Below, piece after piece: positions 49,650 to 64,000 of a DNA stretch of 64,000 nt. The first letter of the stretch is position 1, and each line of letters starts with the position of its first letter. The stretch comes from Limihaloglobus sulfuriphilus (lineage in GTDB: Bacteria > Planctomycetota > Phycisphaerae > Sedimentisphaerales > Sedimentisphaeraceae): contig NZ_CP019646.1 of assembly GCF_001999965.1 (NCBI RefSeq), positions 2,728,001 to 2,792,000 on the forward strand, in the 5' to 3' direction. A model generated the notes under the pieces. It had not been told where the DNA came from, did not search any database, and worked only from the letters and a program-made list of their open reading frames with translations. Position numbers and translations under genes: made by a program.

Positions 49650-50084
49650 TCAACGGCTTTGACGGGGAAAGGTCAAACTGACAGAATATTCAACCGGGCA
49701 GGAAACCGAGTTTGATACCAGACAGTATTTTTCAGCTAAATTTGCCGCGTCTCTTATCTTGCTTTCAAATTCGCTGTTTAAGGCCTCGACCTCTGCGACA
49801 ACGGAGACACTGGTAAACCTTAAGCCTTGCTTGGTTTTTTCGACAGTACCTTCCGCATTTGATTTATAGCTCAAGATCTCTATCTTGAATTTATCAAGAA
49901 AATGAAAAAATACGAGCATTATGCAGCTGTTAATGGATGCCACAAACAATTCTTCCGGATTCAACGTATCCCGACTGCCTCCATACTCTACGGGAGCACC
50001 AACCGCAATACTGTCAATCCCGCTCATTGAAGTCATAGCTTTTTCTCTTGCGTTCTTCGTAATAGTGTTCTTAAACAATTCCAT
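49650..50084 (-). CDS. OsmC-family peroxiredoxin-like protein
   Basis: 144 residues. NPEELFVASINSCIMLVFFHFL carries the first conserved Cys; YCLVSNSVSCPVEYSVSL carries the second. Both are needed for organic-hydroperoxide reduction in Ohr/OsmC proteins. The GGSRDTLNPEEL start of the domain is typical. It lies 45 bp after the RND pump gene and would be the last gene of the long minus-strand unit. Its redox chemistry fits a unit that begins with thioredoxin. Confidence 0.9.
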   Translation of the reverse strand: MELFKNTITKNAREKAMTSMSGIDSIAVGAPVEYGGSRDTLNPEELFVASINSCIMLVFFHFLDKFKIEILSYKSNAEGTVEKTKQGLRFTSVSVVAEVEALNSEFESKIRDAANLAEKYCLVSNSVSCPVEYSVSLTFPRQSR

Positions 50085-50129: not shown

Positions 50130-53100
50130 TTATACAGCCTCACTTCTGACTGTACTGCCGCGAACCATGCCGTAAGCTGCCGGCAGAAACAGCAATGTTA
50201 ACAGCAGTGAATACAATAATCCGCCAATAACGGCGATGGCCATCGTAACGAGCATGCCGCCTTCCTCGCCGAGGTTCATTGCCAGCGGCACCAGCCCCAG
50301 AACAGTGGTTAACTGGGTCATTAATATCGGGCGGACACGAGTTGGGGCCGCTTTACGAATCGCCTCCAATGGTGCCATTCCGGCCTGACGATACTGCTCA
50401 GCTAAGGTCAGCAGCACCACACCCTGCGAGGTGATTCCGCCCATCATTACAAGAATTCCGATCTGGACAGTAACCCCGACAGGCTCTCCGGCCATCAACA
50501 GCGCGATAAGGGCTCCCGTCAGTGCCAACGGAACATTCAGAATAATAAGGAAAGGCAACACAAAGGATTCATACTGAATGGCCAATATTACATAAGCAAA
50601 TAAGGTGGCAAAACCGATTATCAGGCCCACTACGCGGCGACTTTCCTGGATAAACCGGGCCTCGCCGCCCATAGAAATCTCGACACCTGAAGGCGGCTCC
50701 AGATCAACAGCAACCTGCTCAGCCCTGGCAAGGGCCTCACCCACACTGACGCCGGCCGGGTCAGCACGGACAATGACTCTGATTACCTGGTCTTCACGGG
50801 AGAGTTCAACAGGCCCGACAGCTCGACGAACCTCTGCGATGTCCCGCAAATAAATCGGTTCACCATTACGCGTTTCCATGATCAGGTTTTCCAGATGTTT
50901 TTTGCTGGTAAGCGATATCTCCGGCACCATAACTCTAATCGGATAATATTCTGTTCCTTCACGATACTGGGTACTTACTATACCATGAACCAAGGTGCGT
51001 AATGTCGCCGCAACTTGATCAACAGAAACACCCATTGCAGAGGCACGGGCGCGGTCTATGTGCACGCGGTACTCAGGTTTTGTCATATCCATCGAAATGT
51101 TCACGCCGGATAATCCCGGTGTCTTAGTTAGTTGAGATGCTAATTTCTCAGAAAATTCATAGAGCATTACAACATCACTTCCCTTGATATTCACTTCGAC
51201 ATCCTGTTCGCCGACTTTTCGGAGACCTTTGATGGGTCTTTGTTTAACCGGCAGTTTTGCACCAGGCTCCTGCGACTGTACTTTGGCTACCAACGGCTTG
51301 ATCTTCTTAACAAACTCTTCTGTCGTGATGTCCCGCCGGCTTCGCGGCACAAGCTGGATATCCAGCTTTCCTTCGTTACTTACCTCAAGGGTATAAAGCC
51401 CAAAAATTCTGCCGCCGGAAAGACGGAAAGTGCTTTGTACTTCAGGTAAATCTCCAATCTGATTATCTACCCGTGTAAGAATCCGGTCAACCTCAGCCAG
51501 GGATGATCCGGCCGGCATCATGAGTTTAACCATGACTCTTCCGTCATCCAGCTTGGGTAAGAACTCTGTCCCAGACCGAGACGCTAACCAAATACTTATG
51601 GTAAAGATTATCAGTGTCAAAGCTACAACAAGCCACTTGAGCCGTAAACAACCGCCCAGCAGTCGCTCATAACTTCGTATTCCAAATCCAATTACGTGGT
51701 CGAAAATTCTGGCTATCGTCGAAGTCCGTCCGCTTTTTTCGCTTCGCAGCAATCTATCGGTCAGTAACGGTGTAAGGGTCAGGGCGATCAGCAGCGAAAC
51801 CACGACGACCCCGCCCACGACAAAAACCAGCTCACTCAGCAGTTCGGCAACCATGCCGGGGACAAACACAAATGGCAGAAATATTGCAAGAAATGTAAGA
51901 GTCGCAGCCACAATTGCAGAACCAACCTCTTCTGTGCCGCGATGGGCATAGTCTTTTACTCCGTCAGACTTTAACCGGGTGATATTTTCCATAACAACAA
52001 TGGAATTGTCCAGGATCACTCCTAAAGCAACCACCAGCCCTCCCAGGGAGAACACATTTATAGAAAAGTTAGCTGCCTTCATCACACCAAAATTAATCAG
52101 TAGAGTTACCGGCAGTGCCACCATCATCACAACCACCTGCCGCCATCTTCCCAGGAAGAGATATACCACAATAACAACTAAGATCGCGGACAAAATGGCT
52201 GAATCACGTACACTATTGACAGAATTTCTAACGTAGAGACCATCGTCTTCTACGTAACCAAACTCAATGTCTGCCGGGATATCACCGCTGTTCCGCAGTT
52301 CTTCCAAACGAGCTTTTACTCCTTCTGCAACGGTAACTGCGTTAGCAGCATATTGTTTAAGCACTTTGAACTCTACGCAGGGCTTGCCGTTAAAATGTGT
52401 ATTGATCCGCATTTCTGCATGGGAATCTTCTACACGGGCAACATTCCTTATATACACCTCTTCCCCGTTAGAATCTCTGGCTACGACAATATCTCTTATC
52501 TCCTCAAGATTTTCAAACTCTCCCATAGTGCGGGCGATAATCTCTCGAGGTTCAATGGTGACACGGCCGGCAAATGTTTCGAGATTTCCCTCATAGAGAG
52601 CTTTGGCAACCTGCGACGGAGAAAGCTTGTAGGCCTGAAGACGTTCCGGGTCAAGGTGAACACGAATTTCGCGTTCCATTCCTCCGACAACCTCAGCTCC
52701 GGCCGTTCCTTGAACAGAAGCCAGTCGATCTATAAGCCAGTTATCCGCCCACTCGCGAAGCCAGACAAGGTCGTGCTCGTCCGATGTCAGCATCACTTCA
52801 ATTACAGGCAATTGCGACGGATCGGCTTTGATGATGACAGGAGGATCCATGTCACGGGGCAATTTCTTTGTGACCCTGCCCATGGCAGCCACCACATCCT
52901 GAAAAGCCACTTCAACATCCACACCATAGGAAAAATTTGCCAGCAGCGTGTACATACCTTCTATACTGGATGATTCAATGTAATCGAGATTATCGACGGT
53001 AGCTATTACCTCCTCCAGCGGATCGGCTATGTTGTTCTCGATATCATCAGCTGTAGCACCGGACCACCAGATATGGATTTTTACCATAGGATAGGAGACA

Positions 53101-53216
53101 TCCGGTAAATAATTCACATCAAGCTGCGTGAGGCTAAAAAGACCGGCGGCAAAGGTCGCAACAACTAATACGGTAACCGCTACGGGGCGTTTGAGTGCAA
53201 TATCTGTTATCTTCAT
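50130..53216 (-). CDS. RND efflux pump, inner-membrane permease (HAE1/AcrB-like)
   Basis: 1,028 residues with the 12-helix, two-half RND layout. N-terminal MKITDIALKRPVAVTVLVVA, PDVSYPMVKIHIWWSGATAD, SLGGLVVALGVILDNSIVVMEN in helix 4 (an LDN in place of the DD pair of AcrB, as in many HAE1 relatives) and the second-half ALIALLMAGEPVGVTVQIGIL. It expels hydrophobic compounds by proton antiport together with the adaptor and TolC-like genes upstream. The start overlaps the adaptor stop by four bases (ATGA), indicating translational coupling. Confidence 0.95.
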   Translation of the reverse strand: MKITDIALKRPVAVTVLVVATFAAGLFSLTQLDVNYLPDVSYPMVKIHIWWSGATADDIENNIADPLEEVIATVDNLDYIESSSIEGMYTLLANFSYGVDVEVAFQDVVAAMGRVTKKLPRDMDPPVIIKADPSQLPVIEVMLTSDEHDLVWLREWADNWLIDRLASVQGTAGAEVVGGMEREIRVHLDPERLQAYKLSPSQVAKALYEGNLETFAGRVTIEPREIIARTMGEFENLEEIRDIVVARDSNGEEVYIRNVARVEDSHAEMRINTHFNGKPCVEFKVLKQYAANAVTVAEGVKARLEELRNSGDIPADIEFGYVEDDGLYVRNSVNSVRDSAILSAILVVIVVYLFLGRWRQVVVMMVALPVTLLINFGVMKAANFSINVFSLGGLVVALGVILDNSIVVMENITRLKSDGVKDYAHRGTEEVGSAIVAATLTFLAIFLPFVFVPGMVAELLSELVFVVGGVVVVSLLIALTLTPLLTDRLLRSEKSGRTSTIARIFDHVIGFGIRSYERLLGGCLRLKWLVVALTLIIFTISIWLASRSGTEFLPKLDDGRVMVKLMMPAGSSLAEVDRILTRVDNQIGDLPEVQSTFRLSGGRIFGLYTLEVSNEGKLDIQLVPRSRRDITTEEFVKKIKPLVAKVQSQEPGAKLPVKQRPIKGLRKVGEQDVEVNIKGSDVVMLYEFSEKLASQLTKTPGLSGVNISMDMTKPEYRVHIDRARASAMGVSVDQVAATLRTLVHGIVSTQYREGTEYYPIRVMVPEISLTSKKHLENLIMETRNGEPIYLRDIAEVRRAVGPVELSREDQVIRVIVRADPAGVSVGEALARAEQVAVDLEPPSGVEISMGGEARFIQESRRVVGLIIGFATLFAYVILAIQYESFVLPFLIILNVPLALTGALIALLMAGEPVGVTVQIGILVMMGGITSQGVVLLTLAEQYRQAGMAPLEAIRKAAPTRVRPILMTQLTTVLGLVPLAMNLGEEGGMLVTMAIAVIGGLLYSLLLTLLFLPAAYGMVRGSTVRSEAV

Positions 53217-54499
53217 TGTTTCTCTTCTCCTGATATTTTCTCAGTGGTTGCAGTCGATGAAGTATCGCCCACCTGAACTGCGGCTCCATCCTTGAGATTC
53301 AAGTTGCCGGCTACAACAACGATTTCACCGCCTTTCAAGCCTTCGGTGATCTGTATATACTCTTGTTGCTCCAACCCTGTCTTAACTTGTCTCATGTGGG
53401 CTTTGCCATCTTCAATAACATAAACGATCCTGCTGCCTCTGGGGGTTGCTATTATGGCTGAATCAGGAACGACGAGGGCATCATCGACCACACGGCCCTG
53501 CACCGATACTCTGGCAAAAAGATGGGGTATCAGCTCGACCGGTTCAACAATCTTCAGCTCAATGATACGAGTGCGGGATTCCATTTCGATGCGTGGGTAA
53601 ACCCTCGCGATTTTTGCATTAAATGTCTTTCCTGGAAACGCATCCAGCCGCACAACAGCTTCAGTCTCTTTGCGGATCTGGGCAGCGCTGCTTTCCGGCA
53701 GTCCCGCCCGAACCACCAGAGATGATGTGTCCATCATTTTGAGTAACTTTGCCCGAGGCGTAGCCAGGTCGCCCGGCCGAACATATACCTCCGTAATAAT
53801 GCCGGGAAACGGAGATGTAAGAAAACATTCATCAAGTTTTGCCTGAGCAAGAGCCAGCTTTGCAGCTGCCTCATCTACATCAGCCTGTGCCACCGCAATC
53901 TCTGTTTTTGTCGGCCCGGCTTCTAGCATGGACAGCCTTTCCTTAGCGGCCCCTAACTGTGTATGGCATTTTATGTAATCGACTCTCGCCTTCTCGGCCA
54001 TTTCACCAGGCAGAGAACCGTTTTCAACAAGCGACTTGATCCGGTCTAAGTCTTTTTTTGCAAAATCCGTGCAATCCTCAAAATGCCGAACAGATTCTTT
54101 TGCCTCAGCGATCTCTTCCGGACGTGCACCGGCCATAAGGTCAGCCAGCCTTGCTTCGGTTACGGCCAGTGCCGCCTGAGCCGCTGCTACCTCCTGGCGA
54201 TACAAAGGCCGGTCAATTTCAATCAGCTTCTGCCCGGCCTTCTCCACAAAATCTCCTTCCCGCCAGGGGCAATAAGCTATCGGCCCTTCAACGGTCGCCT
54301 CCAGAGTCATTGTATTTGTCGCAACAACATCACCCGTAGTCTCCAGAATCTCTACTATGCGTGTCTTTTCCGCTCTGGTAACCTCTACAAACGGAGCTGT
54401 TTTGGTTTTACCGGCTGTACTTTTATCCTTGCAGCCGTTTAATCCGATAAAAACAGCTCCACAAACCATGGTTATCAATATATGTTTTAAAATTGTCAC
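53213..54499 (-). CDS. RND efflux periplasmic adaptor (membrane fusion protein)
   Basis: 428 residues. The signal ends in a lipobox-like FIGLNGCKDK, so probably a lipoprotein. Order: FVEVTRAEKTRIVEILETTG start, half lipoyl domain, a long alpha-hairpin (about 95-215: VAAAQAALAVTEARLADLMAG and VAQADVDEAAAKLALAQAKL), second lipoyl half with SPFPGIITEVYVRPGDLATP, and beta-barrel/C-terminal regions. It links the RND permease to the outer-membrane channel. Sixteen bases follow the universal stress protein gene. Confidence 0.93.
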   Translation of the reverse strand: MTILKHILITMVCGAVFIGLNGCKDKSTAGKTKTAPFVEVTRAEKTRIVEILETTGDVVATNTMTLEATVEGPIAYCPWREGDFVEKAGQKLIEIDRPLYRQEVAAAQAALAVTEARLADLMAGARPEEIAEAKESVRHFEDCTDFAKKDLDRIKSLVENGSLPGEMAEKARVDYIKCHTQLGAAKERLSMLEAGPTKTEIAVAQADVDEAAAKLALAQAKLDECFLTSPFPGIITEVYVRPGDLATPRAKLLKMMDTSSLVVRAGLPESSAAQIRKETEAVVRLDAFPGKTFNAKIARVYPRIEMESRTRIIELKIVEPVELIPHLFARVSVQGRVVDDALVVPDSAIIATPRGSRIVYVIEDGKAHMRQVKTGLEQQEYIQITEGLKGGEIVVVAGNLNLKDGAAVQVGDTSSTATTEKISGEEKQ

Positions 54500-54515: not shown

Positions 54516-55433
54516 TTATTTGATGTTACAGCTTTCTTTAGTTGGATCAGCACCTTCAATTTGTCTGGGAATCAATAAGACAGGGGACTGCGAATGACGT
54601 ATTACATTGTGGCTGACACTGCCCAAAAATATCTCGCTTATAAATCCCCGTCCATGGCTGCCCATGATCACGGCACTCACATCTGTTCCATTTATTCTCT
54701 TTAATATCTCACTGACCGGCGAGCCGTAAGGAATTTCAATATCTATTTCAGCATCACCGATTTTTACCAATCTTTTTTTCAGCTCTTCTAGCCGTTGTTT
54801 ATCAATCTCATTAAATTCATCCAATCTGTCCTTAAGGTGAATACCCAGCCGGGCTTGATCTTGAACGTGCAAAAGGGTTACATGAACAGTACCGCACTCA
54901 ACAAATTTACATACATACTCGAACGCCAGAGACGAATGTTCTGAAAAATCTGTTGCATATAAAATGTGATGTCTCAAATTTTTATTGTTATCCGCATAAA
55001 GCGGTTTTCCGGTCTCTTCATCCGCCTTCAAATGAATGATTAGAACCGGTTTTTTTGTCTGATGTATGATTTCTGCAGCAGTGCCTCCCAATAAAATCTC
55101 ATTGGCTAAATTGTGGCCGTGTGATCCGGCTACAATAAGGGAGCAGTTTCGCTTCTCTGCAATTTTCGGAATCTGCTCGCCGGCAAGCCCAAGTTCTGCA
55201 ACTACTGTTGTTTTAATTCCTTTACTTTCCAGAATCTCTTTTTGTGTATCTAACGAAGACACAATAGAGTCTTTTATTTGATCGGGGAAAGCGACTTGCT
55301 CCTTAATCATAAAACACTGAGCAAGAACACATTCACGGGTGCCAAGCATATACAAAGCATCGGCGCATCCCAGAGTGGCGTAAGAGGACGGCGATGAATC
55401 TGTAGCAATGAGAACTTTAGAAAACATAATCAC
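54516..55433 (-). CDS. Tandem universal stress protein (two UspA domains)
   Basis: 305 residues. Domain 1 (about 1-140) has the nucleotide loop AGSHGHNLANEILLGGTAAE; domain 2 (about 155-295) has MGSHGRGFISEIFLGSVSHN. Both keep the G-2x-G-9x-G(S/T) ATP-binding pattern. Soluble, cytoplasmic. It is wedged between the TolC-type gene (6 bp) and the RND adaptor (16 bp), so it is certainly part of the efflux operon. Such a position suggests a sensory or regulatory role for pump activity; that is inference. Confidence 0.93.
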   Translation of the reverse strand: MIMFSKVLIATDSSPSSYATLGCADALYMLGTRECVLAQCFMIKEQVAFPDQIKDSIVSSLDTQKEILESKGIKTTVVAELGLAGEQIPKIAEKRNCSLIVAGSHGHNLANEILLGGTAAEIIHQTKKPVLIIHLKADEETGKPLYADNNKNLRHHILYATDFSEHSSLAFEYVCKFVECGTVHVTLLHVQDQARLGIHLKDRLDEFNEIDKQRLEELKKRLVKIGDAEIDIEIPYGSPVSEILKRINGTDVSAVIMGSHGRGFISEIFLGSVSHNVIRHSQSPVLLIPRQIEGADPTKESCNIK

Positions 55434-55439
55434 ACTCCA

Positions 55440-56885
55440 TTAAGGGTTAACATCATCTCCACATGGCAATCCCGCTGCCTGGCGGAACTGGGCTATCGCT
55501 GTGTTGCAGTCAGCCAGGGCACGGTAATAATTCATCTGAGAGCTCAGAAGAGCCGACTGGGCATCAAGAACATCGACAATCGCCCCCTTGCCCAGGTCAT
55601 ATTTTTCGCGTTCAATGCGCAGGGATTCTTTTGCCATCTCAACCGCTTTTTCCGTTACACCTACCCTTGCCCGCGTGGATTCTATATTTGAGGCGGCGGT
55701 TTCTACTTCGACCTGAATCTGAAGTTTCAATCTTCTTAAACTCTCTTCAATAGATCTCAACCGGCTGCGTTCACGCCTGATTCCCGCATCAATCCTTCCG
55801 CCTTCAAAAAGCGGCATCTCTGCGAAGAGACCAACCGAACCAACCTCGTTGTCTTCATCAAAATCATCTGAATCCCATCGGCTTCCATAGGAAGCTCGAA
55901 GAGAGATCTCGGGCAATCTTCGGGATTTGGCGACATCAAGCATTTTACGCTGAACATCCACCCTTGATATTAATGATTGATAATCCTGTCTGTATGCCAT
56001 TGCAAGTGTGAACCCACGGTCAAGTTCATCCGGTATGTCACCGAGTATCAGCTGCCCTTTGATATCGAGAACCTCAGTTTCCGTATCGCAACCAAGCAAA
56101 CTGGTTAATAAAAATCTTTGAATATCAAGCGTATTACGCTCACGAAGCAATTGCTGTTCAATATCTGCAAGCCGGACTTCGGTTCGCAGCAAATCAACAT
56201 GTGCGGCTTTTTGTGCTTCCATTAATTCTTTGGTCCTTTTAAAATGCTCCCGGAGTGTTTCCTGAGAAAAGATCAGCGAATTGATAACCTCCTTCTGGCC
56301 GAGCATCGAATAAAATACACTTGTAATATTGAAGACAAGCTCCCTTTGGCTGTGAGCCAGTTGATGTTGAGCCGACTTGGCAAGCAAGTCAGCCGCCTTG
56401 ACCTGATTTTGAAGACGCCCGCCTGTGTATAAAGGCATGTTCAATACAATATCTCCGGAGACTAGGTCGTCGGTGAATTGTAACACTTCTGAGGTTCCGG
56501 GCCTTCTGGGCTGAATCAGTCTATCTTCTCTAAAATGTTCATATCCGCCTTCTGCGCTAATAGTTGGCCATAAGGCTCCTTCTGCGATATCCTTACCTGC
56601 CAGAGAGGTCTCGGTATCCCATTGTCTCTGCATTATTTCAGGGTTATTTTCAAATGCAGTTTCAAGGCACTGCTCAAGAGTTAATTCTAATCCACACTTT
56701 TGAGCAGCAGAAACATCTTGTGAATCAGATACGTTGTCATAAGACTGACCTTTTAGAGTTTCCTTAAGCGGCTGTTTGAGCTTGACTGTTTCCGGTTTGC
56801 GGTAAATATCCTGATTACCTGCTGTGCAGCCGGATCCCTTGATTACTGCAAGTACTGTTAATGTTATGATAAATGTATTTTTCAT
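55440..56885 (-). CDS. TolC-family outer-membrane efflux protein
   Basis: 481 residues. Signal peptide with lipobox-like IKGSGC near residue 20. LTLEQCLETAFENNPEIMQRQW opens the first TolC repeat and ARVGVTEKAVEMAKESLRIEREKYDLGKGAIVDVL the second. PEISLRASYGSRWDSDDF and LFEGGRIDAGIRRERSRL are beta-strand/helix joins of the channel. It forms the outer-membrane duct for the RND pump encoded two genes further on. Confidence 0.94.
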   Translation of the reverse strand: MKNTFIITLTVLAVIKGSGCTAGNQDIYRKPETVKLKQPLKETLKGQSYDNVSDSQDVSAAQKCGLELTLEQCLETAFENNPEIMQRQWDTETSLAGKDIAEGALWPTISAEGGYEHFREDRLIQPRRPGTSEVLQFTDDLVSGDIVLNMPLYTGGRLQNQVKAADLLAKSAQHQLAHSQRELVFNITSVFYSMLGQKEVINSLIFSQETLREHFKRTKELMEAQKAAHVDLLRTEVRLADIEQQLLRERNTLDIQRFLLTSLLGCDTETEVLDIKGQLILGDIPDELDRGFTLAMAYRQDYQSLISRVDVQRKMLDVAKSRRLPEISLRASYGSRWDSDDFDEDNEVGSVGLFAEMPLFEGGRIDAGIRRERSRLRSIEESLRRLKLQIQVEVETAASNIESTRARVGVTEKAVEMAKESLRIEREKYDLGKGAIVDVLDAQSALLSSQMNYYRALADCNTAIAQFRQAAGLPCGDDVNP

Positions 56886-56947: not shown

Positions 56948-58282
56948 TTATACGCTGTTATGTAAGATATCCATTTCTGTCAACACACCAGTAATATTCC
57001 CTTTTTTATCTGTCACAATGACTTTGTATTCATGTTTTCTCTTCATTTTCTGGGCTATTTCTGATATTGGAGCGTCATACCTGATGTTGAGCACAGGCAT
57101 AAGCTCTACCTGATCAAGCCTTCTATCAAGTGACACTTGATCCGCCAAAAGATTGATAAGCGATTCAGCAGTCAGCACTCCTGCTGGTTTATTATCATCT
57201 GATAAAACGATTATTGAATGTATATGTTCCTCATCCAGCATCTTTATCGCATCATGTAAAGTTGCTTTATTATGAAGGGCAAATACACCTACTGCCATAA
57301 TGTCCTGAGCTGTTTCTTCAGGTGTTTTACCAAATATTTTTGGAGTAAACTTAATATACCATGCAGCAGACTGAACCTGAATGATATAGGCAATGGCTAT
57401 GATCAGAGCTATATCAGAGCCCTGTTTCCCAAAAACAGTCATAGCAATAGCCAGTGCGATAGAGAGATTCCGCATCACCGTTCCGTAAACCAGAGCAATT
57501 GCATCCTCTCGAGAAAAAAGCAGTTTCCCGACTAATGTACTGATAGAGAAGTTGACAAAATAGAGTATTATCAGCGGCACCAGGGACATCAGAAGCAATG
57601 AAGGCTGTGATATAATTGTTTTGGATTTTATTGCCATCGCAACAAATACAATACCTAAGACACCTATGGTGGAAATCAGGGGAAACTTCTTTTTAATGTC
57701 TTTATGATATTTTGCTTCACCGTATCTCTTGATAATGAACCGCTGAGTTGAATAGCCGGCAACCATTGGAAGAAAGACAATAATTGCAATCTGTTTAAAC
57801 ACATTTAAAAGTGGAATTTCAATAACAGCCCCCATTAACCACTTGATATAAAGCGGTGTTGCCAGGGAACCCGCAATAAGACCAATGACAGTCATCTTAA
57901 TGGCTGCATTGATATTGCCTCTGGCAAAGCCCGTCCACGAAATCGTCATACCGCTTGTTGGAAGCAAAGCCGCCAGAAGCAAGCCAAGGGCTATAAGCGG
58001 ACTGTCTGAGAAAAAGAGCTTACCAATACCGAAGGCAGCGAATGGAATTATCGCAAAGTTGATGAACTGCGTAACCAGCTGAACCTTCACGTCACCTCCA
58101 GAGAATACTTTTTTGATCTGGAGATTTACCATCATCGGATAAACCATCAAAAACGTCAATGGCACAATAAAGGTCTTTAGGAAAGAGGCATCATAATAAT
58201 AACCGTAAATAAGACCTAATATCATGCAGGCAGGGATATTATAAACTAAATATTTCTGAGCAAATGCTATTTTATTCCACAT
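56948..58282 (-). CDS. BASS/ACR3-like permease fused to a pair of CBS domains
   Basis: 444 residues. The N-terminal ten-helix permease (about 1-315) resembles the bile-acid:sodium symporter/arsenite exporter superfamily: ALLPTSGMTISWTGFARGN in the re-entrant region and YGTVMRNLSIALAIAMTVFG in the second. The C-terminal 125 residues hold two CBS motifs: MLDEEHIHSIIVLSDDNKPA with LTAESLI, and KMKRKHEYKVIVTDKKGNIT with LTEMDIL. CBS pairs bind adenosyl ligands and gate transporters. The ACR3 active cysteine was not found, so arsenite is doubtful. Member of the sigma-54 unit. Confidence 0.82.
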   Translation of the reverse strand: MWNKIAFAQKYLVYNIPACMILGLIYGYYYDASFLKTFIVPLTFLMVYPMMVNLQIKKVFSGGDVKVQLVTQFINFAIIPFAAFGIGKLFFSDSPLIALGLLLAALLPTSGMTISWTGFARGNINAAIKMTVIGLIAGSLATPLYIKWLMGAVIEIPLLNVFKQIAIIVFLPMVAGYSTQRFIIKRYGEAKYHKDIKKKFPLISTIGVLGIVFVAMAIKSKTIISQPSLLLMSLVPLIILYFVNFSISTLVGKLLFSREDAIALVYGTVMRNLSIALAIAMTVFGKQGSDIALIIAIAYIIQVQSAAWYIKFTPKIFGKTPEETAQDIMAVGVFALHNKATLHDAIKMLDEEHIHSIIVLSDDNKPAGVLTAESLINLLADQVSLDRRLDQVELMPVLNIRYDAPISEIAQKMKRKHEYKVIVTDKKGNITGVLTEMDILHNSV

Positions 58283-58326: not shown

Positions 58327-58725
58327 TTAAGCCGGTACAGCTTTGATATCGCTGACCCACTTGATCAGTATTTCTGTCAGCAGCGGATTCGGTGCTTCAA
58401 GAAAAGAAACAACATAGTGGGTATCGGTCTCGCAGATACCGATCGCCCTGGGCCGGACAGATAAAACCCTAGGGTCTGTAAGTTTTTTTCCAAAACAGAA
58501 CAAAACCACCTTGGCCGCCATTATGGCTTTGTCAATAAGCCCCTCATCAATTCCAACAGTATGTTCATAATGGTCAAAAGTGCTGACATATCTGGCAAAT
58601 GGATGGTTTTCGATTTGATCGCAGAAATACGAACAAATCTCATCGACATTCTGAAAAGCAACATGAGTTTTTGGAAATTCTTTTGAGTAGATTGGATATG
58701 TATCTTGAAAATGGCATTGTTCCAT
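58327..58725 (-). CDS. Small conserved protein of unknown function
   Basis: 132 residues, soluble, no signal peptide and no domain I can name. Visible features are a FPKTHVAFQNVDEICSYFC start, a central HYEHTVGIDEGLIDKAIMAA and VRPRAIGICETDTHYVVSF. Two cysteines (C33 and C35, as CSYFCD) and several histidines could bind a metal or react with thiols, but this is speculation. It lies between thioredoxin (114 bp upstream) and the BASS-CBS permease (44 bp downstream) in the sigma-54 unit, so a redox or transport-linked role is suggested by context only. Confidence 0.72.
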   Translation of the reverse strand: MEQCHFQDTYPIYSKEFPKTHVAFQNVDEICSYFCDQIENHPFARYVSTFDHYEHTVGIDEGLIDKAIMAAKVVLFCFGKKLTDPRVLSVRPRAIGICETDTHYVVSFLEAPNPLLTEILIKWVSDIKAVPA

Positions 58726-58839: not shown

Positions 58840-59160
58840 TTACGACTGAGCAGTTATTGCATTTGCCAGGCTTTCTCCTGACTGTACGCCGACAAAACGC
58901 CGGACTTCACGCCCGTCTTTAAACAGGATCAGGGTCGGTATAGCCTGAATCCCATATTTCATCGCAACATCTTCGGCTTCATCCACATTCACTTTTAGAA
59001 TTCTTGCCTCATCTCTGGTTTCCGCGGCCAGTTCTTCTAATATCGGCACCTGCATTTTGCAGGGACCGCACCAGGGCGCCCAGAAATCTACCAGACTAAT
59101 TCCCTGTTCAATGATTTTTCCAAAGTTATCTGAATTAGCTTCTATAACTAAATCTGACAT
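58840..59160 (-). CDS. trxA: Thioredoxin
   Basis: 106 residues. The WAPWCGPCK active site is at about residues 28-36, followed by VNVDEAEDVAMKYGIQAIPT with the cis-Pro and LILFKDGREVRRFVGVQS. Standard length and cytoplasmic. It follows the small lipoprotein gene by 48 bp and probably supplies electrons to oxidised cysteines such as those of the OsmC protein in the same unit. Its location in a sigma-54 operon with efflux and stress genes is not the usual housekeeping setting, so it may be a dedicated copy. Confidence 0.96.
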   Translation of the reverse strand: MSDLVIEANSDNFGKIIEQGISLVDFWAPWCGPCKMQVPILEELAAETRDEARILKVNVDEAEDVAMKYGIQAIPTLILFKDGREVRRFVGVQSGESLANAITAQS

Positions 59161-59208: not shown

Positions 59209-59379
59209 TTAGTCCTTACAAACCTCAGGCACTTCACCTGCGTAATCATACATCTTCTGATTTTGTTCATACGCCGTACGGCATTCATCGCTTGTTTCTC
59301 GGGATTCCTGACATCCGGAAATAAAAAACAAGGCCAGAAAACCAACAGCGACCAAAATGGATATATTTACTGTTTTCAC
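59209..59379 (-). CDS. Small cysteine-containing lipoprotein
   Basis: 56 residues from GTG 59379, which has GGAG about 8 bases upstream; a frame continuing to 59424 has no ribosome site. The signal VKTVNISILVAVGFLALFFI ends in a lipobox SGC. The mature part, QESRETSDECRTAYEQNQ onward, is short, acidic and has two further cysteines (DEC and VCKD). First gene after the sigma-54 promoter at 59512-59530. No family recognised; possibly a periplasmic thiol or metal sensor. Confidence 0.65.
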   Translation of the reverse strand: MKTVNISILVAVGFLALFFISGCQESRETSDECRTAYEQNQKMYDYAGEVPEVCKD

Positions 59380-59511
59380 AATATCTCTCCATATATTAAA
59401 GTTTCGTTGTTTTTTAAGCGGCATAATATCAACATCTGGATTCGTGAAAAACTTGTACCGAATACCGTTGTTAAATCAGCCTATTTAAATAATTCAAAGC
59501 TGACTGATAGA

Positions 59512-59530
59512 GTTGCAAAAGGTATGCCAG
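59512..59530 (-). promoter_or_regulatory. Sigma-54 promoter of the thioredoxin-efflux unit
   Basis: Minus strand CTGGCATACCTTTTGCA has GG (59528-59527) and GC (59516-59515) separated by exactly 10 bases, close to the consensus TGGCACG-N4-TTGCA. The start should lie near 59503, about 125 bases before the small lipoprotein gene. It sits directly behind the terminator of the activator gene. Confidence 0.75.
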
Positions 59531-59536
59531 AAAACT

Positions 59537-59563
59537 AAAAAAAGACCTGCATTGTCACAGGTC
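59537..59563 (-). terminator. Intrinsic terminator of activator 1
   Basis: Stem GACCTG/CAGGTC with an 8-base loop (59544-59563), followed on the minus strand by seven U. It lies about 108 bases past the stop at 59671 and separates the activator gene from the sigma-54 unit it probably controls. Confidence 0.8.
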
Positions 59564-59624
59564 CATACAGATAAAGTGGTTAGATAAATGAGTGGAGCGG
59601 GGAATATATTTTGTGAAGCTCTGG

Positions 59625-59656
59625 GTATGCGCAAACCAATGCAGGAATGCGCATAC
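59625..59656. promoter_or_regulatory. Inverted repeat GTATGCGCA/TGCGCATAC, probable enhancer site
   Basis: Perfect 9-bp inverted repeat with a 14-base gap; each arm contains or nearly contains the self-palindrome ATGCGCAT. Its centre is about 112 bp upstream of the sigma-54 -24 element, the usual place for an activator binding site, and lies just past the activator 1 stop codon. Confidence 0.55.
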
Positions 59657-59670
59657 TAAATGAAAGAAGT

Positions 59671-61047
59671 TTACAGTCCGAATCGGCGCAATTTCTTATA
59701 CAAACCGGCCCTGGTTATACCTAACATCCGGGCTGCCTGCGATTTATTGCCTTCAGCTTTGGCTAAGACTTCTTCTAACTTTGATCTTTCGTCAAAATCT
59801 CTTGTCTTAGCAGATTTAACTTTGGAAAAAGGTTTGTTTGGCCCTGTTAAAGTTGCAGGCAAACTATCGAATGTGATAACCTTCTGACTGCTGGTGGTAA
59901 CCGCAAAAGCGTGTTCTATTACATGTTCAAGCTCACGGATGTTTCCGGGCCAATTATGATTTATAAACCGATCCATCGCTTGGGGAGAACAGCCCTCTAT
60001 GCTTTTGTTATATTCCTCATTGAACTGACTTATAAAATGAGAAATTAAATCCTGCAGATCTTCTTTACGCTCACGTAACGGCGGCACATTCAACTCAACA
60101 ACATGCAGACGGTAATAAAGGTCATCTCTGAATTGGCCGGTATTAACTAAATCTGAAAGTTTCTTGTTGGAAGCTGCTATTACCCGAACATCAATTGGCC
60201 TTGGCAGACTCTCGCCAACCCGCGTAACCTCCTTTTCCTGCAGCACCCTCAAAAGCTTAACCTGTGATGAAAGCGGCATTTCTCCAATTTCATCCAAAAA
60301 TAGAGTGCCGCCAAACGCAGTCTCAAAACATCCCTCCCTGTTTTCGACCGCACCCGTAAAAGCCCCTTTTCTGTGCCCAAACAACTCCGCTTCTAAAAGC
60401 GATTGTGTCAAAGCACCACAGTTTACTGCGAGGAATATCTTATCCGACCTGTTGCTTTCGGAATGTATTGTCTTAGCTACTAATTCTTTACCGGTTCCGG
60501 TTTCTCCTTCAATAAGGATGTTTGCGTCATTCTTAGAGACTACCTGGATCAATTCATAAAGCCTTTGCATCTTTTCAGAGCGTCCGACCATTTGTCCGAA
60601 TTTTCCGCGTCTGGCGATTTCATGTTTGAGAAGACGGATCTCTGTTCGGGCCTGCTTGATCAGGCTCACATCAATCAGTGCTTCAATTGCGCCGATAATC
60701 TGATTCTGATCATCAAAAACAGGACGGCTTTTTCGCATCACAGGAACAACAGAACCGTCTTTTTTACGCATTTCGCATTCCACCTCTCCGTAATTGCCGC
60801 CGGAAAGCAATGGACAGAATGTTTTGCGTGTTTCAGGGTCTTGATTGGCACAGATATTCAACCTTAATTTTTCGCAGGTTTGGCCGACTATCTCAGATTC
60901 ATTGTAGCCTGTTATTTCTTCTGCCGAGTTATTCCAGTAAATAACCTGATGGTTCTGATCAACCATAAAGACAGCGCAGGGTACTGTTTCCAGAAGTGCT
61001 TCTCTGAAATAATGGTTGATTTTGTCAAGTTTTTTCATAACTTTCAT
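59671..61047 (-). CDS. Sigma-54-dependent transcriptional activator (PAS-AAA+-Fis), activator 1
   Basis: 458 residues. PAS domain about 12-125 (VPCAVFMVDQNHQVIYWNNS, with four cysteines that could sense redox or a metal). AAA+ domain about 150-385: Walker A GETGTGKELV, sigma-54 contact loop GAFTGA, Walker B TLFLDEIGEM and R-finger region DDLYYRLHVV. The C-terminal Fis-type HTH is KSQAARMLGITRAGLYKKLRR. It should act at a sigma-54 promoter, most likely 59512-59530 downstream. A promoter with a 16-base spacer lies at 61104-61131. Confidence 0.95.
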   Translation of the reverse strand: MKVMKKLDKINHYFREALLETVPCAVFMVDQNHQVIYWNNSAEEITGYNESEIVGQTCEKLRLNICANQDPETRKTFCPLLSGGNYGEVECEMRKKDGSVVPVMRKSRPVFDDQNQIIGAIEALIDVSLIKQARTEIRLLKHEIARRGKFGQMVGRSEKMQRLYELIQVVSKNDANILIEGETGTGKELVAKTIHSESNRSDKIFLAVNCGALTQSLLEAELFGHRKGAFTGAVENREGCFETAFGGTLFLDEIGEMPLSSQVKLLRVLQEKEVTRVGESLPRPIDVRVIAASNKKLSDLVNTGQFRDDLYYRLHVVELNVPPLRERKEDLQDLISHFISQFNEEYNKSIEGCSPQAMDRFINHNWPGNIRELEHVIEHAFAVTTSSQKVITFDSLPATLTGPNKPFSKVKSAKTRDFDERSKLEEVLAKAEGNKSQAARMLGITRAGLYKKLRRFGL

Positions 61048-61317: not shown

Positions 61318-61324
61318 TATATTG

Positions 61325-62659
61325 ATGAAACATGAACCTGTTCAACAAAAAGATGTAATTTTAGACAGTATTGCTGATGGTGTCTTCACTGTTAATAAAA
61401 ACTGGCGTATCACGACCTATAACCGGGCCGCCGAGCAGATAACCGGAATACCTCGTCGAAAAGCAATAGGTTTGATTTGCAAAGATGTTCTGCGTGCCGA
61501 TGTCTGTGAAAACAACTGCGCCCTGAGGCACACAATGGATACAGGTGAACCGGTAATTAACAAGCCTGTTTGTATAATAAGTGCGCAAGGCAGACGCAAA
61601 TCCATTACAATATCCACCGCCTTGCTTAAGGACAAAAAAGGTCAGGTTATAGGCGGAGTGGAAACATTTCGGGATATGACTGTTGTTGAAGAACTGAGAA
61701 AGCAGGTCAAAAAACAGTACAGCTGCGAAGACATAATCAGCCGCAACCACAAAATTCAGGAACTTTTTGACATTCTGCCGCAGGTTGCCCAAAGCAATTG
61801 CACAGTTTTGCTTGAAGGCCAGACTGGAACAGGCAAAGAGCTTTTCGCCAGGGCTATTCACAATCTGAGCCCCCGCAAAGATAAGCCTTTTATCGCCGTT
61901 AACTGCAGTGCACTTCCAGATACATTGCTCGAATCTGAGTTATTTGGTTACAAAGCCGGCGCCTTTACCGATGCGAAAAAGGACAAACCGGGCCGATTTG
62001 CGTTGGCAGAGGGAGGCACCATTTTCCTGGATGAAATCGGTGAAATGTCCTCGTCCGTTCAGGTTAAACTTCTAAGGGTGCTTCAGGAAAAAACTTATGA
62101 ACCAGTTGGCGCCGTTTCTTCTGAAAAAGCAAATGTACGGATTATCACCGCGACTAACAAAGATGTAGAGGAGCTGGTTGAGAAGGATATGTTCAGGGAT
62201 GACCTTTATTATCGAATCAACGTAGTTAAACTCTGCCTTCCGCCTCTGAAGGAAAGAAATGAAGATATACCGCTTCTTGTTGATCATTTTGTACATAAAT
62301 TCAATCAGGTTTACGACAAAAACATCTGCTGCCTAAGTGACAACGCAATGGCAGCACTTATGAGTTATGAATTTCCCGGCAATATAAGGGAGCTTGAAAA
62401 TATTATTGAGCACAGCTTTATCCTTTGTCACGGCGACGTTATTGAGGCCAAAGATTTGCCCCCGGCAATCCAAAAAGATGTCGGAGGCAAGGATCAAAAC
62501 CTTGACAATTTCAGGACTCTCAGACAGATGGAAGCTCTGATGATAGAAAGGGCTTTGAGTCGTAATGGAGGCAATCGTACGGCGGCAGCAAAGGAATTGG
62601 GGATAAATGCCAGCACACTTTTCAGAAAACTAAAAAACATCAATTCTACCAGCAAATAA
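61325..62659 (+). CDS. Sigma-54-dependent transcriptional activator (PAS-AAA+-Fis), activator 2
   Basis: 444 residues from ATG 61325; a TTG one codon earlier is less likely. PAS domain about 8-120 (ADGVFTVNKNWRITTYNRAA) with a cysteine set CKDVLRADVCENNC that may sense redox or bind a cofactor. AAA+ about 145-375: GQTGTGKELF, GAFTDA in place of GAFTGA, IFLDEIGEM and DDLYYRINVV. HTH GGNRTAAAKELGINASTLFRK. It is divergent from activator 1 and upstream of a sigma-54 promoter at 62839. The GAFTDA variant of the sigma-54 contact loop is worth noting. Confidence 0.94.
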   Translation: MKHEPVQQKDVILDSIADGVFTVNKNWRITTYNRAAEQITGIPRRKAIGLICKDVLRADVCENNCALRHTMDTGEPVINKPVCIISAQGRRKSITISTALLKDKKGQVIGGVETFRDMTVVEELRKQVKKQYSCEDIISRNHKIQELFDILPQVAQSNCTVLLEGQTGTGKELFARAIHNLSPRKDKPFIAVNCSALPDTLLESELFGYKAGAFTDAKKDKPGRFALAEGGTIFLDEIGEMSSSVQVKLLRVLQEKTYEPVGAVSSEKANVRIITATNKDVEELVEKDMFRDDLYYRINVVKLCLPPLKERNEDIPLLVDHFVHKFNQVYDKNICCLSDNAMAALMSYEFPGNIRELENIIEHSFILCHGDVIEAKDLPPAIQKDVGGKDQNLDNFRTLRQMEALMIERALSRNGGNRTAAAKELGINASTLFRKLKNINSTSK

Positions 62660-62691
62660 TTTTCCTGCCCCTTCGTCCAACTTTTAACACT

Positions 62692-62739
62692 GTTGCATAT
62701 TGCACGGAACTATTTCAATTCAGTATTGCAGTACGCAAT
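62692..62739. promoter_or_regulatory. Two inverted-repeat elements, probable enhancer for the NifX-like gene
   Basis: GTTGCATATTGCAC (62692-62705) and ATTGCAGTACGCAAT (62725-62739), both of the form TTGC-N4/5-GCAA or close to it. They lie about 107-141 bp upstream of the -24 element, the usual distance for sigma-54 activator sites. Confidence 0.4.
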
Positions 62740-62838
62740 TAAAATTGATGCGGCATTTCTTTTACAGAACTTCTCTAAATTCGTAAGCTCTTTAAATACA
62801 CACACTTACCAACCACGCCCCCTATTCGTAGAATATTA

Positions 62839-62852
62839 GGCACAGAAGTTGC
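62839..62852 (+). promoter_or_regulatory. Sigma-54 promoter of the NifX-like unit
   Basis: AGGCACAGAAGTTGCAT has GG (62839-62840) and GC (62851-62852) with exactly 10 bases between and keeps GGCAC and TTGCA of the consensus. The transcript would start near 62863, giving a leader of about 14 bases that just contains GGAG at 62866-62869. Confidence 0.75.
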
Positions 62853-62876
62853 ATAAAAGAAGTATGGAGATTGCTT

Positions 62877-63933: not shown

Positions 63934-64000
63934 ATGCCGATATTTGAATACAAATGTAAAAAATGCGGTGCAAAAAGTGAATTTCTGGAAAAATCCGGCA
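63934..64000 (+). CDS. FmdB-family zinc-ribbon protein, 5' part only
   Basis: The window ends after 22 codons: MPIFEYKCKKCGAKSEFLEK. The CxxC of the FmdB putative regulatory zinc ribbon is complete so far. GAGGAG lies about 9 bases before the ATG. Family members are small and their role, perhaps in formamidase or metal regulation, is unproven. It continues the plus-strand NifX/DUF5320 group. Confidence 0.85.
   Translation, partial: MPIFEYKCKKCGAKSEFLEKSG

Follow-up and report, generated by a model that had tools for sequence, protein, structure and literature searches.

In the DVU0569-ald locus of Desulfovibrio vulgaris, the gene for a one-component activator is followed by a conserved motif, with a sigma-54 promoter serving a downstream gene, and the sigma-54 regulons of this bacterium usually comprise one to four operons (PMC4641369). 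The locus described here, found in a 64 kb stretch of DNA that we call the window, shares this layout, whereas its target genes and its phylum differ; the two systems are likened by layout and not by the letters of their operators. The nearest functional analogue that we considered is FisR of Cupriavidus and Acinetobacter, which activates sulfide oxidation (PMC7315123) and which, like the regulator of our locus (activator 1), is a sigma-54 activator with an N-terminal regulatory domain. This likeness is one of function, and the CoA-disulfide reductase-rhodanese of two related genomes, G002 and G004, may point to a thiol or sulfur link. The FisR-type targets sulfide:quinone oxidoreductase and persulfide dioxygenase were both absent from the window operon and from the partner operons scanned. 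Among the NCBIfam models, PrdR (NF041552) matches activator 1 best, through its PAS-AAA-HTH part (383 bits against a cut-off of 795), but this score is far too low for the model, whose first 125 positions, a CBS part that the SBF transporter has as well, are unmatched by activator 1, and the targets differ. As read from the sequence, the module is conserved and ordinary in kind, and its operator and putative regulon are newly described. To our knowledge, the activator of a sigma-54 regulon has been identified in few cases in this group of planctomycetes.

Activator 1 and its relatives

Activator 1 (59671..61047, minus strand) is a regulator of 458 amino acids composed of a PAS domain, a sigma-54 AAA+ domain and a Fis-type HTH domain (Pfam PAS_9, Sigma54_activat and HTH_8), and its gene ends with a TAA stop codon at 59673-59671 on the minus strand. 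Orthologues in other genomes match it with 59-79% identity. The AAA+ domain matches PF00158 with an E value of 5e-70 and contains the GAFTGA loop at residues 228-233, which is invariant across seven orthologues, and the same genome carries one gene for RpoN (PF04552, 2.1e-60). In the PAS domain, cysteines 24, 58, 66, 78 and 91 are invariant in the seven orthologues apart from the loss of C66 in G265, and C58 and C66 alone are common to the paralogues. Activator 1 is rare, with a close relative in 6 of 397 genomes of the class, and the named organisms among its relatives belong to the Sedimentisphaerales, the Anaerohalosphaeraceae and other Planctomycetota/Phycisphaerae metagenome assemblies, so that the host of the window very probably belongs to the Sedimentisphaerales. 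By kinship and genome form, G002 and G004 appear to be Sedimentisphaera-like. Cultivated members of the Sedimentisphaerales are anaerobic fermenters (PMC11266412).

Sites, hairpin and promoter behind the activator gene

On the minus strand, the stop codon of activator 1 is followed by GTATGCGCA...TGCGCATAC, a hairpin with seven T and then TGGCATACCTTTTGCA. This agrees base for base with the preliminary description, which had placed the stop, the repeat, the hairpin and an exact GG-N10-GC promoter at these positions. GTATGCGCA (59656-59648) and TGCGCATAC (59633-59625) are perfect complements and form a 9-bp inverted repeat, and the distance of about 112 bp that had been proposed between the repeat and the -24 element was measured as 112 bp from the repeat centre to the promoter GG. 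Taken alone, a 9-bp inverted repeat is unremarkable as evidence, and what stands out is that this one matches a conserved motif. Short-loop repeats of this kind are nearly fourfold commoner in the window than in dinucleotide shuffles (28 perfect 9-bp inverted repeats with a loop of at most 20, against 7.6 per shuffle).

Judged by its letters, the repeat reads as tandem near-copies of a 12-bp palindrome, GTTWGCGCWAAC, and not as one dyad with a 14-bp spacer. Since two copies of a palindrome also resemble an inverted repeat, the region had earlier been read as one. The proposal that it serves as an enhancer is supported by its conservation with the activator, and the single inverted repeat gives way to two palindromic sites. 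The distal predicted enhancer site, GTATGCGCATTC (site 1; 59645..59656, minus strand), belongs to the conserved tandem and is centred about 122 bp upstream of the -24 GG, and the proximal one, GTTTGCGCATAC (site 2; 59625..59636, minus strand), is centred about 102 bp upstream, which gives a centre spacing of 20 bp. With a motif matrix trained on 25 sites that all came from other species, the GTATGCGCATTC/GTTTGCGCATAC pair scored 26.6 bits and ranked first in the 64 kb, compared with 8.0 bits for the next-best pair of the window and 18.9 for the best of 30 shuffles. Site 2 is the top single site of the window with 17.6 bits, and site 1 is the weaker, degenerate half with 9.0 bits.

The sigma-54 promoter TGGCATACCTTTTGCA (59514..59529, minus strand) has the exact GG-N10-GC spacing of its -24/-12 elements and is the sole zero-mismatch instance of TGGCAY-N5-TTGCW in the window; the whole genome, a single contig of 3.87 Mb in which the window spans bases 2728001-2792000, contains 11 exact matches on both strands. 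Between the sites and the promoter, the hairpin (59564-59543) and its T7 tract (59543-59537) together occupy 59537..59564 on the minus strand, with an RNA fold of -11.7 kcal/mol (z -2.8), and probably form the intrinsic terminator of the activator transcript.

Conservation with the activator and specificity among paralogues

We compared the flanks of seven orthologues, including that of the window, with 60-100% identity from the order Sedimentisphaerales and relatives. First, a tandem GCGC-centred pair lies within 50 bp after the activator gene in six of the seven, a set that is small, interrelated and in part the source of the motif tested on it. The spacing within these six pairs is 20, 20, 20, 21, 21 and 22 bp; the G002 site, GTTAGCGCTAAC, is a perfect 12-bp palindrome, and the pairs of other species read GTTAGCGCATAC/ATATGCGCAAAC, ATATGCGCATAC/GTTTGCGCAAAC and TTTAGCGCAAAC/GTTGGCGCAAAC. 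Second, all six site-bearing orthologues have a match to 15 or 16 of the 16 positions of the sigma-54 consensus at 120-158 bp after the gene. The thioredoxin promoters of G002 and G004 are near-consensus variants with TC for GC at -12, and their MMPL promoters have GT at this position. Third, among the genomes that carry the activator, 5 of 6 contain the composite of a pair and, at 80-110 bp, GGCA-N6-TT, compared with 28 of 391 others (p 1.7e-5). Both sites and promoter are absent behind the activator gene of the G074 orthologue (69% identity), where the MMPL gene found with sites in G002 and G004 follows the activator directly and without sites. Finally, the terminator that the preliminary description had included in the module is present in the window as a hairpin with T7, but a comparison of the 3' flanks found the hairpin missing or different in the orthologues. 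A T-rich stretch directly upstream of the -24 element is kept in 5 of the 6 site-bearing orthologues, and the T run may therefore have a role at the promoter as well.

The paralogues, with about 38-42% identity, show a different picture. None of 23 carries the tandem GCGC pair, against 6 of the 7 orthologues (Fisher p 1.2e-5), while behind the genes of 14 of the 23 the sigma-54 consensus is matched at 15/16 or better, and TTGC-N3to7-GCAA palindromes, mostly TTGCANNNTGCAA, occupy the enhancer region in 10 of 13 paralogues examined in other genomes. The recognition helix also changes, from GITRAGLYKK in activator 1 to the GINKSTLFRK type in the paralogues. The best argument for our assignment is this joint swap of operator and recognition helix at the same position, which suggests that the enhancer behind an activator gene is bound by the product of that gene. 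A layout of activator gene, palindromic enhancer, sigma-54 promoter and target operon appears to be general in these relatives, each activator clade having an operator of its own. In the window, activator 2 (61322-62857, plus strand) presents its gene, the palindromes TTGCATATTGCA and TTGCAGTACGCAA and then AGGCACAGAAGTTGCA (62838-62853), with a gene for a small protein near 62871 downstream of AGGCACAGAAGTTGCA.

The operators of the LacI family, too, are palindromic around a GCGC or CG core. The GTTWGCGCWAAC palindrome resembles them, and a superficially similar pair lies near a LacI/XylR-like gene in G074, so that the sites might belong to another regulator, such as a LacI-type repressor, with activator 1 using a site that we did not see. 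We regard this as improbable: the sites lie 70-135 bp upstream of sigma-54 promoters, a position typical of enhancers and unlike that of repressor operators, they track a rare activator, and the loci of the paralogues carry a different motif at the same position. The G074 pairs near the LacI/XylR-like gene and other genes were left uncounted, as they had no convincing link to sigma-54.

In G002, G004 and G265, operator pairs 11 bp apart were also observed just upstream of the activator gene (L005, L006 and L043). The pairs of G002 and G004 lie directly behind a sigma-70-like -10 element, and because of this adjacency we suggest that the activator likely represses its own gene in these two genomes, with a spacing of one turn. 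No 11-bp-spaced operator pair was found upstream of the activator gene in the window.

Proposed target operon, wider regulon and mechanism

All genes of the operon lie on the minus strand. The first encodes a small lipoprotein of 56 aa with a GTG start and an ISGC lipobox (59209..59379), for which no Pfam family was matched. It is followed by a thioredoxin with WCGPC (58840..59160; Pfam PF00085 and NCBIfam TIGR01068, above cut-off), a DUF6858 protein (58327..58725; PF21651), an SBF/ACR3-like transporter with C-terminal CBS domains (56948..58282; Pfam SBF, CBS), a TolC-like outer-membrane efflux protein (55440..56885; Pfam OEP), a universal stress protein with two Usp domains (54516..55433; Pfam Usp), an RND periplasmic adaptor (53213..54499; TIGR01730, above cut-off), an RND efflux permease (50130..53216; NCBIfam RND permease models, below their cut-offs) and an OsmC-like protein (49650..50084; Pfam OsmC), which is probably the last gene. 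In every genome that keeps sites at the adjacent promoter, the first enzyme gene behind this promoter encodes a thioredoxin or a thioredoxin-like protein. The small lipoprotein precedes the thioredoxin-type gene in the window and in G090, where it is likewise the first gene of the operon, and its frame is apparently broken in G068; homologues also open the MMPL operons of G002 and G004. As an observation in its own right, a lipoprotein that is about 55 aa long and has a DY.GE.PE-like ending is a recurrent first gene (window, L002, L159 and L186).

When the activator-bearing genomes were scanned with the pair pattern, sites were also found at further operons with sigma-54-like promoters. In G002 and G004 they lie upstream of an operon for the small lipoprotein, DUF302 and MMPL proteins and upstream of a separate operon for a zinc-ribbon protein and a ferredoxin. 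The G002/G004 operon also encodes a CoA-disulfide reductase with a rhodanese domain. In G265, several GCGC sites and the exact sigma-54 consensus TGGCACATCGGTTGCT stand on a contig that lacks the activator and are followed by genes for a thioredoxin and an MMPL transporter. Genome-wide scans, which are pattern searches that degenerate sites escape, yielded one target with the tandem site pattern in the genome of the window, namely the adjacent operon, and two or three in related species. The search for further copies of the repeat in this genome, which the preliminary description had proposed, returned one other pair, and this match was rejected as chance since it lies inside a DprA-like coding sequence. 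No sites precede the MMPL gene of this genome, a regulon member elsewhere, which is preceded here by an ArsR-type gene, and no comparable pair lies upstream of its other exact sigma-54 matches. Searching the literature for the operator word brought up nothing relevant.

These operons also bear on whether the repeat acts as RNA, forming a 3' stem of the activator mRNA and, with the hairpin, a bipartite terminator or stability element. The repeat lies directly behind the stop codon and folds well as RNA (-21.7 kcal/mol, z -3.8), but the orthologue copies are tandem palindromes of which several no longer pair as a long perfect stem, and there is no Rfam match. We rejected this reading as highly unlikely because the same sites stand upstream of operons that lack a preceding activator gene (L155, L139, L154, L159 and L186).

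Based on these observations, we suggest that activator 1 is very probably a local enhancer-binding protein that switches on the thioredoxin/efflux operon through two palindromic dimer sites and TGGCATACCTTTTGCA. The preliminary description had predicted that activator 1 drives the downstream unit, and the prediction gains support from a pair and promoter that are conserved with the activator and absent from the paralogues, and from the further operons with sites. Dimer sites two helical turns apart and some 70-135 bp upstream of the -24 element are the geometry used by sigma-54 activators. Dimers of activator 1 would bind the two GTTWGCGCWAAC sites on about the same face of the DNA, 102 and 122 bp upstream of the -24 GG, and a signal at the PAS domain would lead the AAA+ domains to assemble and hydrolyse ATP. 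By analogy with known sigma-54 biology, looping would bring them to RNA polymerase-sigma-54 held closed at TGGCATACCTTTTGCA, which would then open and start transcription near 59503. The transcript would cover the small lipoprotein, thioredoxin, DUF6858, the SBF-CBS transporter, the TolC-USP-adaptor-RND efflux genes and OsmC, and termination of the activator transcript at the hairpin (59564-59537) would probably leave the operon dependent on the sigma-54 promoter. That the operon is instead mostly read through from the activator gene, with the sigma-54 promoter minor, has very little to recommend it: the genes are co-directional, the terminator is of moderate strength and the hairpin lacks conservation, but a 290-base gap and a terminator separate activator and operon, and both promoter and sites persist in relatives that have not kept the terminator.

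The most plausible class of signal is thiol, reactive-sulfur or electrophile stress, a guess based on thioredoxin, OsmC, the efflux genes and the CoA-disulfide reductase-rhodanese of G002 and G004. A more specific reading is possible but rather doubtful, namely a Phycisphaerae-specific thiol or reactive-sulfur sensor whose PAS domain, with cysteines particular to the clade, would directly control a detoxification regulon centred on thioredoxin via tandem GTTWGCGCWAAC enhancers; its members would be thioredoxin, OsmC, MMPL/RND efflux, CoA-disulfide reductase-rhodanese, DUF302 and the small lipoprotein. What is gained is a testable regulon in related anaerobic planctomycetes, with an operator word, a geometry, a cognate regulator and target operons.

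Two minor observations concern the surroundings. A gene for a zinc-ribbon protein (MPIFEYKCKKCG) starts at the edge of the window (63934-64000, plus strand), and, as also noted for L188, its relatives are regulon members in G002 and G004 and stand beside OsmC and MMPL genes in G068. In the genome of the window, the exact sigma-54 sites at L124, L129 and L130 precede genes that, by eye and from their first residues, resemble ClpB, DnaK and GroES. This fits a report that genes for chaperones are enriched under sigma-54 control in Planctomycetota (PMC12316311).
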